Origin: Clostridia bacterium
GTDB taxonomy: Bacteria; Bacillota; Clostridia; Christensenellales; UBA3700
Assembly: GCA_029060025.1 (NCBI GenBank)
Contig: JAIDUV010000021.1
Coordinates: 1 to 58,357 of the forward strand
Length of the DNA: 58,357 bases
Direction of reading: 5' to 3'
In this document: positions 7,232 to 46,017 of the stretch, piece by piece
Position numbering within the stretch: the stretch's first letter is position 1
Layout of the letters: every line of letters starts with the position of its first letter
Notes under the pieces: model-generated
The model's input: the letters and a program-made list of their open reading frames with translations, nothing else
The model's database searches: none
Told to the model about the DNA's origin: nothing
Made by a program: the position numbers and the translations under genes

Positions 7232-7243
7232 TGTCTCAACAAT

Positions 7244-7367
7244 AATTCTTTGAGGGTGGGTGAAATTCCTCACCGGCGGTAAAGTCCGCAAACGCTGCAA
7301 ATCTCATATACAGCGCCGAACAAGTGCAATTCTTGTACCGACAGTAAAGTCTGGATAGGAAAAGGAT
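7244..7367 (+). ncRNA. FMN riboswitch (RFN element)
   Basis: Conserved RFN blocks are present: AGGGTGGGTGAAATTCC, CACCGGCGGTAAAGTCCGC, a variable hairpin, ACCGACAGTAAAGTCTGG and ATAGGAAAAGGAT at the 3' end. The closing helix P1 pairs 7245-7251 with 7361-7367 (seven pairs, one G.U). The 3' strand of P1 contains AAAGGA, the ribU ribosome binding site. Binding of FMN should stabilise P1 and hide it, so control looks translational; I see no intrinsic terminator between aptamer and start codon. Confidence 0.95.
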
Positions 7368-7374
7368 AATTAAA

Positions 7375-45427: not shown

Positions 45428-45514
45428 GCTGCTGTGGTGGAATAGGCAGACACAAGGGACTTAAAATCCCTCGAAGGCGACTTCGTACCGGTTCAAGTCC
45501 GGTCAGCAGCACCA
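45428..45514 (+). tRNA. tRNA-Leu (TAA)
   Basis: Type II tRNA with acceptor GCTGCTG/CAGCAGC, anticodon loop CTTAAAA and a long variable arm CGAAGGCGACTTCG. T-loop TTCAAGT; encoded CCA. Its last 21 bases are duplicated at 45632-45652. Confidence 0.97.
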
Positions 45515-45653
45515 AGGCAAGTATGCTTACGCAGACTTGCAAAAATGCACTGCGGACACGGACAGTCCGAAATAGTGACGCTCGCACAAGACGCTAAACG
45601 CTTGCTCGCTATTCCGTCACTCCGTTCCTTACAAGTCCGGTCAGCAGCACCAA
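45494..45653 (+). repeat. Duplicated tRNA-Leu 3' end flanking a small element
   Basis: The 22 bases from T-loop position C56 through CCA (45494-45515) recur exactly at 45632-45653. Between them lie ~116 bases whose right part (45563-45631: AGTCCGAAATAGTGACGCTC, then GCTCGCTATTCCGTCAC, ending TCCTTAC) is shared with the insert after tRNA-Pro. The second copy is only a tRNA fragment. Confidence 0.85.
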
Positions 45654-45675
45654 CACAAAAACACATAAAACAATT

Positions 45676-45752
45676 CGGGGTGTAGCGCAGTTTGGTAGCG
45701 CGCTTGGTTCGGGACCAAGAGGCCGTGGGTTCGAATCCCGCCACTCCGACCA
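45676..45752 (+). tRNA. tRNA-Pro (CGG)
   Basis: Acceptor CGGGGTG/CACTCCG, D-arm GCGC/GCGC, anticodon loop TTCGGGA, T-arm GTGGG/CCCGC with TTCGAAT; encoded CCA. 3' end duplicated at 45916-45936. Confidence 0.97.
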
Positions 45753-46017
45753 TCGTAAAGACTTGCAGTATAGCAAGCAACAGAAAAAGCGAGGTTCTTC
45801 CCTCGCTTTCTTCTTTTTCTTGGCTTTTAGGCAAGTCTTTTTATTATTTTACGTGTGCTAGACTGTCCGAAATTGTGACGCTCGCCGGCTCGCTATTCCG
45901 TCGTTTCTCTCCTTACGAATCCCGCCACTCCGACCATCGTAAAGACTTGCAGTATAGCAAGCAACAGAATAAGCGAGGTTTCCCCTCGCTTTCTTCTTTT
46001 TCTTGGCTTTTAGGCAA
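45732..46017 (+). repeat. Duplicated tRNA-Pro 3' end plus terminator flanking a small element
   Basis: About 102 bases from T-loop position C56 of tRNA-Pro through the downstream terminator (45732-45834) recur at 45916-46017 with one small gap and a few changes. The ~81 bases between end with 45861-45915, which matches the insert behind tRNA-Leu (CTGTCCGAAATTGTGACGCT, GCTCGCTATTCCGTC, TCCTTAC). In both tRNAs the duplicated piece begins at the same T-loop base. Confidence 0.85.
45786..45820 (+). terminator. Terminator after tRNA-Pro
   Basis: Stem AAAGCGAGG/CCTCGCTTT (45786-45794 with 45801-45809) then a T-rich tract. A second copy occurs at 45971-45991 in the downstream repeat. Confidence 0.88.

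Follow-up and report, generated by a model that had tools for sequence, protein, structure and literature searches.

What lies behind the tRNA-Leu and tRNA-Pro genes of this Clostridia genome, and how did the end of each tRNA come to be repeated after a short insert? In the window (the whole stretch of DNA that was analysed, 58,357 nucleotides, belonging to genome G000), ARAGORN identified a tRNA cluster in the order Val-Gly-Cys-Leu-Pro, whose last two members are each followed by an insertion.

Two insertions behind tRNA-Leu and tRNA-Pro

The intact tRNA-Leu(taa) (45428..45514, + strand, as are all features of the locus; ARAGORN and Rfam tRNA), with C56 at 45494, is followed by a trailer (45515..45542) which, by its sequence and the trailers of other copies, holds a GCAAGT...ACTTGC hairpin that terminator scoring did not pick up; by an arm recognised from pairing (45545..45566), an imperfect reverse complement of the tRNA-Leu 3' part with one extra stem base; by a conserved core delimited by repeats and alignment (45567..45631), with two hairpins and a TTA end before C56 of the displaced copy; and by the displaced tRNA-Leu positions 56-76 (45632..45652; repeat D5). 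The intact tRNA-Pro(cgg) (45676..45752; ARAGORN), with C56 at 45732, is followed by a trailer (45753..45842; sequence and terminator scoring) with a terminator-like stem at 45786-45809, an arm (45845..45866) whose pairing with the tRNA-Pro 3' part is weak in the window copy, a short form of the conserved core (45867..45915; repeats and alignment) and the displaced tRNA-Pro positions 56-76 (45916-45936), after which a trailer copy with terminator-like stem completes the duplication (45916..46017; repeats D1 and D3).

The sequence-only reading had described this locus (45494..46017) as two tRNA 3' parts repeated from C56 of the T-loop, two inserts with a common core and a longer Pro duplication that includes the terminator, and both its coordinates and its description were correct: the 3' part recurs at 45632 (Leu) and 45916 (Pro), 23 of 25 nt are common to the two inserts (45561-45585 against 45861-45885), and the Pro duplication extends about 80 bases beyond the tRNA, as repeats of 65 nt at 98% and 35 nt at 100%. 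The displaced Leu copy lies in a 27-nt repeat (93%), with the tRNA part and one further base identical. No Rfam family covered the element at the gathering threshold within the window; an FMN riboswitch was detected elsewhere in it (7242-7370, + strand, 97.6 bits).

The order after CCA (trailer, arm of about 20 nt, core) also describes the other copies, in many of which the trailer is intrinsic-terminator-like within a longer stem; terminator scoring called one in the window Pro copy and none in the window Leu copy, and the others were judged by eye. The distances from A76 to the core fall into two groups, 51-60 and 94-123 nt, and element lengths are 109-122 nt in 12 of 54 copies and 143-189 nt in 42. 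The core holds three near-fixed stretches, CGAAATNGTGACG, TCGCTANNC and TCCTTAC. No clear terminal inverted repeats were seen in the elements; a weak likeness between some left ends (CAAGG) and the right end (GTAAGGAGCG) was noted by eye only. Near-perfect antisense of the tRNA-Ala 3' end was also observed after a terminator-like hairpin behind tRNA-Ala(ggc) in L265 and L271, with no recognisable core adjoining, and in L271 a stretch resembling the core's right half follows about 80 nt further on; these sites are possibly a second, diverged subfamily.

Occurrence of the element and its target in tRNA genes

A 21-base core pattern (up to 3 mismatches, with the reversed pattern as control) matched six sites in G000, the window's two and four more, against none for the reversed pattern. 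Counting G000, matches were obtained in 20 of 40 genomes and in 15 of the 17 of the genus, G003 and G012 being the two genus genomes without one; a search of related genomes for the core beside tRNAs had been proposed in the sequence-only reading. At the level of the family a shorter pattern was found in 29 of 46 genomes and in three of six genera. Outside the genus, 20 stretches were inspected, holding 22 cores; 15 of these were preceded by a tRNA at a distance below 320 nt, one was chance-like and one was cut by a contig end. A two-part pattern scanned across genome_contigs (84,980 species) returned 48 stretches, every one from an assembly with Christensenellaceae, Christensenella, Clostridiales or Clostridia in its title, and viral contigs gave no core-pattern matches; the family thus appears lineage-bound at the sensitivity of the patterns used. 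Four places in genomes of other families (G027, G028 and G038, three of the 20) were rejected as members because they were chance-like, the two inspected (L010 and L011; L028 and L029 were left out) having no remaining core and no tRNA. The members of the family, tiny DNA elements that lack genes, occupy a fixed point in several different tRNA genes within a single group of Clostridia. No paper on such an element was among the top-ranked matches of a literature search whose coverage excluded most subscription journals and all bioRxiv preprints.

The target was counted over 99 distinct cores from 113 of 277 loci (G000, its relatives and sister genera; duplicates, recombinase loci, motif loci and genome_contigs loci were omitted). 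The core occupied non-random positions, as T-arm targeting had implied: 83 of the 99 lay before T-loop-like bases (RANYN after TTRC, the T-loop/T-stem start) and 55 directly behind an intact same-strand tRNA ending less than 160 nt upstream, the number rising to 68 within 1500 nt. The remaining cores were, among others, cut at contig ends, truncated, diverged at the right end or matched by chance. The 51 distinct tRNA-adjacent copies (loci L098-L147 left out), from searches that covered only the orientation of the tRNA, span 18 isoacceptors of Leu (taa, gag, caa, cag), Ser (cga, tga, gga, gct), Pro (cgg, ggg), Val (tac, gac), Thr (ggt, cgt), Arg (ccg, acg), Tyr and Ala.

The insertion falls between nucleotides 55 and 56, with the element pointing as the tRNA does and positions 56-76 present on both sides. 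In the genus and its near kin, base 55 differed between the two copies in 42 of 42 cases and base 56 agreed in 41. The displaced part was identical at 20 of 20 bases in 25 of the 42 copies and diverged in the other 17, several of which match over the first 7-13 bases only. Among the 25 intact duplicates, identity past A76 was nil in 14, 1-3 nt in six and longer in five, where it reached 6, 8, 33, 56 and 102 nt to the first mismatch (the 33-nt case is the window Pro copy and the 102-nt case a tandem copy). Host tRNAs were left intact, as had been read from the window, with T-stem mismatches in 0 of 54 and an acceptor mismatch in 3 of 54. An acceptor C-A mismatch was observed in tRNA-Arg(ccg) of G063, G067 and G068 (L263, L274 and L271), with the same bases in the displaced copy; it is absent from the tRNA copy of tRNA-Arg(ccg) in L265 (G064).

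The same tRNA cluster in two sister species provides an empty and a filled site, the comparison that the sequence-only reading had called for: the Leu-Pro spacer is 21 nt in G002 and 204 nt in G005, the latter being the sum of a 162-nt element and twice 21 nt, and the flank after the displaced copy is nearly the same as in G002, i.e. a clean insertion with a 21-nt duplication. Behind tRNA-Pro, G000, G002, G008 and G016 have an element and G007 lacks one; no element was recognisable in G005, where the GTCCAAAATAGT found behind that tRNA may be a remnant of one. Head-to-tail arrays were also found, with cores 124 nt apart and Pro 3' parts in G016:C82 (L060) and with cores 132 nt apart behind Thr(ggt) in G044:C2 (L258), the inspected stretches holding three cores each. 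With many copies, an empty site and identical elements behind different tRNAs, the proposed T-loop-targeted insertion of a tiny non-coding element was borne out, and the mobility and tRNA target of the element are well supported.

The duplicated tRNA end, the core hairpins and the arm

The elements were compared with one another (n=54, L098-L147 excluded). Those behind Leu(cag) and Leu(taa) in G008 are identical at 167 of 167 positions, each being flanked by its own 3' part, and these 3' parts differ at 3 of 20 bases; the elements at Leu(cag) of L075 (G010) and Leu(caa) of L242 (G008) share 163 of 175 positions and their 3' parts differ at 4 of 20, while for Ser(cga)/Ser(tga) pairs the figure is at most 154 of 172. 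Since the identical elements each carry the 3' part of the local tRNA, that part seems to be derived from the target, and a 3' part carried by the element would have given a chimeric tRNA in the identical-element pairs. Duplication of the 21-nt tRNA end from the target is favoured over a carried part, with about an even chance of being right; a carried part is a possibility that we hold to be rather unlikely. The identical G008 elements could also reflect gene conversion between older copies, and at Arg(ccg) of L265, where the two copies of the 3' part disagree and the arm matches the one in the tRNA, either tRNA and arm may have co-evolved or the 3' part may have been carried.

The two hairpins of the core vary in sequence and length with the pairing kept. 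In H2, 37 distinct segments had a mean of 2.65 outer pairs against 0.65 when shuffled (maximum 1.14 of 2000), and in L1, 58 distinct loops had a mean of 2.36 against 0.57 (maximum 1.02), the shuffles preserving composition only. The clearest hairpin changes, at one place in the sister genus, were GCACC/GGTGC, GTGCG/CGCAC and GCATAC/GTATGC; on the genus alignment RNAalifold returned only a 6-pair GTGACG/CGTCRC stem, with no double changes. By raw folding energy the bottom strand was favoured in 61 of 73 copies (DNA parameters) or 66 of 73 (RNA parameters); relative to dinucleotide shuffles, however, the strands did not differ and the whole-fold energies were unremarkable, and folding energy was accordingly rejected as a guide to strand choice.

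Conserved hairpins and loops, an arm antisense to the tRNA 3' part and tRNA-adjacent copies all oriented as the tRNA (the sole orientation searched) would also be expected if core, arm and displaced 3' part formed a cis-acting structured RNA linked to read-through or to the maturation of the tRNA that had spread through duplication and gene conversion, with mobility incidental. This we consider improbable, as many copies, including the window Pro copy, lie behind a terminator-like stem, presence and number differ between sister species at the same tRNA, tandem and cross-tRNA copies occur, and the window yielded no Rfam family over the element.

Pairing between the arm and its own tRNA was assessed in 42 of 75 core loci, those whose right end could be recognised and whose distance from an intact upstream tRNA was below 150 nt, representing 16 isoacceptors. 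The mean for the own tRNA was -8.36 kcal/mol, compared with -5.89 (sd 0.36) when isoacceptors were permuted, and none of 10,000 permutations was as good, either for the whole arm or for its outer part alone; for the 23 nt before the arm, taken as control, 5842 of 10,000 were as good. The own tRNA was the better partner in 13 of the 16 isoacceptors, and the arms of Ser(gct), Ser(tga) and Val(tac) showed no preference for their own tRNA over others. The stem between arm and tRNA is imperfect, and in several copies an extra base interrupts it about 5 pairs below its top. The tRNA copy differed from the displaced copy in 22 of 51 cases, and in these the arm fitted the tRNA copy better in 15 and the displaced copy in 4, with 3 ties (sign test p=0.0096, kinship of the copies being ignored). 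The preference for the tRNA copy indicates that the arm pairs not with the displaced copy but with the target or with the circle of the element itself.

We therefore read the elements as a non-autonomous mobile family of about 110-190 bp, gene-free, with a folded-strand, arm-guided and target-duplicating mechanism that we infer from these patterns, and give this reading a probability of roughly 50%. The active form would be a single strand, folded so that the arm and the tRNA 3' part pair as a stem beneath the core; pairing of arm and tRNA would select the tRNA, an enzyme acting in trans would cut at the T-loop, and the 21-nt tRNA end would be copied from the target during insertion. The folded form may be RNA or DNA. 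That this amounts to a new kind of mobile element, in which pairing between arm and tRNA gene finds the target, the element acts as a folded single strand, the tRNA is rebuilt from the target and the enzyme is that of the host, is put forward only tentatively.

The principal alternative is ordinary site-specific integration, in which the element is a remnant mini-island with an attachment site in the T-loop, moved by a tyrosine integrase in trans, and carries its own tRNA 3' part that restores the gene, the displaced fragment being the old one; we regard this explanation as possible if doubtful. The available parts of two sources describe a restored tRNA at one end and a displaced 3' fragment at the other, a mark present here, as standard for tRNA islands (PMC4383910), and a T-loop crossover for phage Ms6 (PMC1762012). 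The agreement of tRNA copy and arm against the displaced copy at Arg(ccg) of L265, and the 15 to 4 preference for the tRNA copy with 3 ties, would likewise be expected. Against it stand the 167/167 and 163/175 elements behind different tRNAs, where a carried part would be foreign, the lack of an integrase in such small elements, and the variation in core length and loops, which fits a folded strand and not a duplex arm. One integrase usually serves far fewer than 18 isoacceptors, the number counted here. Moreover, Ms6 requires a fully identical 26-base core, according to the portion of the paper at hand (PMC1762012).

Candidate mobilisers, neighbouring genes and known systems

No mobiliser linked to the element was found among the enzyme classes scanned (serine and tyrosine recombinases, reverse transcriptase, Y1 transposase and Cas1). 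A larger integrase-bearing element with the same junction, which the sequence-only reading had suggested looking for, was not found, two serine-recombinase candidates proving to be separate elements. In G000:C78 and G009:C115 a serine recombinase frame lies directly before the arm, the order being the recombinase-alignable part, a tRNA 3' end (..CTCTGCCA and ..GCACCA) with trailer, then arm and core; the C78 open frame continues through the tRNA 3' end, trailer and arm into the core. As the recombinase part ends at the tRNA 3' end before the arm, it belongs to another element inserted in front, and the core was found at only 2 of 30 recombinase loci scanned. Serine recombinases were thus rejected as the mobiliser, having their own crossover at the tRNA 3' end and being later neighbours. 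In G000:C78 (17458-41071; L078, L109) tRNA-Ser(gga) and a core lie about 23.5 kb apart, separated by a segment with a large serine recombinase; in G001 (L079) the interval from tRNA to core measures 5.8 kb and holds other genes.

Among tyrosine recombinases, a single PF00589 match was present in each of G006, G007, G008, G012 and G014, four of which carry elements, and a protein alike in length and profile span, the two measures used, occurs in 15 of the 17 genus genomes. The G000 member of that group, an XerS-like protein of 355 aa, was nearest to XerS (178 bits, below the cut-off of 267). These observations favour the mini-island explanation, in which the integrase would possibly be a host XerS-like protein and might act on a folded strand, as happens with integron cassettes.

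Reverse transcriptase, Y1 transposase and Cas1 were each rejected as required resident partners because each had no match in several element-carrying genomes: PF00078 had no match in G002, G006, G008, G010 and G015; Y1 transposase had none in 10 of the 17 genus genomes, including the element-carrying G000, G004, G008 and G016; and Cas1 was found in only 5 of 17, being absent, for example, from the element-carrying G006, G007, G014 and G016. A visiting enzyme of the reverse transcriptase, Y1 or Cas1 type may be the partner. A Type II Cas9 gene was observed beside tRNA-Ser(cga) in G000:C66 (L110, 1092-5330, - strand, 754 bits), and the downstream side of tRNA-Ser(cga) is an insertion hot spot in these genomes. 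Arm plus core as a Cas9 guide was considered and set aside as unlikely, since the arms look too mismatched and Cas1 is not general.

Behind Ser(cga) and Val(tac) several successive elements occur with genes between them. The genes between cores were GNAT, CAT-family, RibD_C and DUF5131 in G004:C41, DUF5131 in G013:C65 and, in G000:C66 (451-1816; L007), a short-chain dehydrogenase between two elements behind tRNA-Val(tac), whose block ends in ATTCGTTTTAGATTA plus a tRNA-like 3' end. The dehydrogenase, GNAT and 113-aa (G016:C65) blocks end in an attR-like motif, ATTCGTTTTAGRTTA, followed by a tRNA-like 3' end, and both DUF5131 blocks run directly into arm and core without that motif. In the loci examined the motif had 20 contexts (1 mismatch allowed) and was followed by YTCCRCCA in 9; loci with this combination included L003, L025, L062, L067, L111, L203, L205 and L219, some of the preceding blocks having single genes. 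Given how they end, the dehydrogenase, GNAT and 113-aa blocks were probably brought by a second integrative system at tRNA 3' ends, with ATTCGTTTTAGRTTA best read as its attR; the small elements would then have inserted again in front of these blocks.

The genes between successive cores (GNAT, CAT-family, RibD_C, DUF5131 and short-chain dehydrogenase), together with the two DUF5131 blocks that lack the motif, could also be taken as integron-like gene cassettes anchored at tRNA genes, with arm and core as an attC-like folded site. We judge this very improbable, given the separate attR-like ends of the other three blocks and the scores of two of the six PF00589 matches of G000 against the integron integrase (57.8 and 117 bits, cut-off 265).

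Returning to the non-autonomous family as the favoured reading, insertion should cost the host little, since the tRNA is left whole and a terminator is often supplied; tRNA genes would in this way be safe harbours at many places, and the same T-loop spot is reusable, as the tandem copies show. Because the arm follows the identity of the tRNA, target choice by pairing is directly testable and, if true, would make this a compact programmable insertion system. Partial tRNA fragments left by integration are described, in the accessible part of one source, as a known cause of annotation error (PMC9897764), and the element family accounts for such fragments in these genomes.

Of known systems, tRNA islands of the Islander type and phage Ms6 resemble the element, as far as the source portions go, in the intact tRNA with a displaced 3' fragment and in the T-loop crossover. 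The islands described there carry an integrase, whereas the present elements (110-190 bp) are too short for one, use 18 isoacceptors, have a 3' part apparently taken from the target and possess an arm matched to the tRNA.

The core boxes of integron attC sites read GTTRRRY / RYYYAAC. These boxes are absent from the alignment, where the junction, judged by eye, reads CTTAC/RANTCC (CTTAC then RANTCC). The likeness to attC lies, on the available part of the source, in a hairpin site with an extra unpaired stem base, a variable tip and recombination beside a short motif (PMC3053210); in contrast to integron cassettes, no attI was found and no integron integrase among the two G000 tyrosine recombinases scored, the core sequence is conserved and the target is a tRNA gene.

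Casposons duplicate their target upon insertion (14 nt in M. mazei) and one integration site is related to a tRNA-Leu gene, in the part of the paper accessible to us (PMC10359463), which are their points of likeness. They are described there as about 10 kb long, with cas1 and inverted repeats, whereas the present element is gene-free and Cas1 had no match in 12 of the 17 genus genomes.

MITEs and small repeats such as Correia and REP are short, gene-free and multicopy and presumably moved in trans, all of which is shared by the present element; unlike MITEs, it has no clear terminal inverted repeats, a fixed tRNA target and a 21-nt duplication ending at the CCA end. The element fails, or leaves open, one defining feature of each of the known systems compared.
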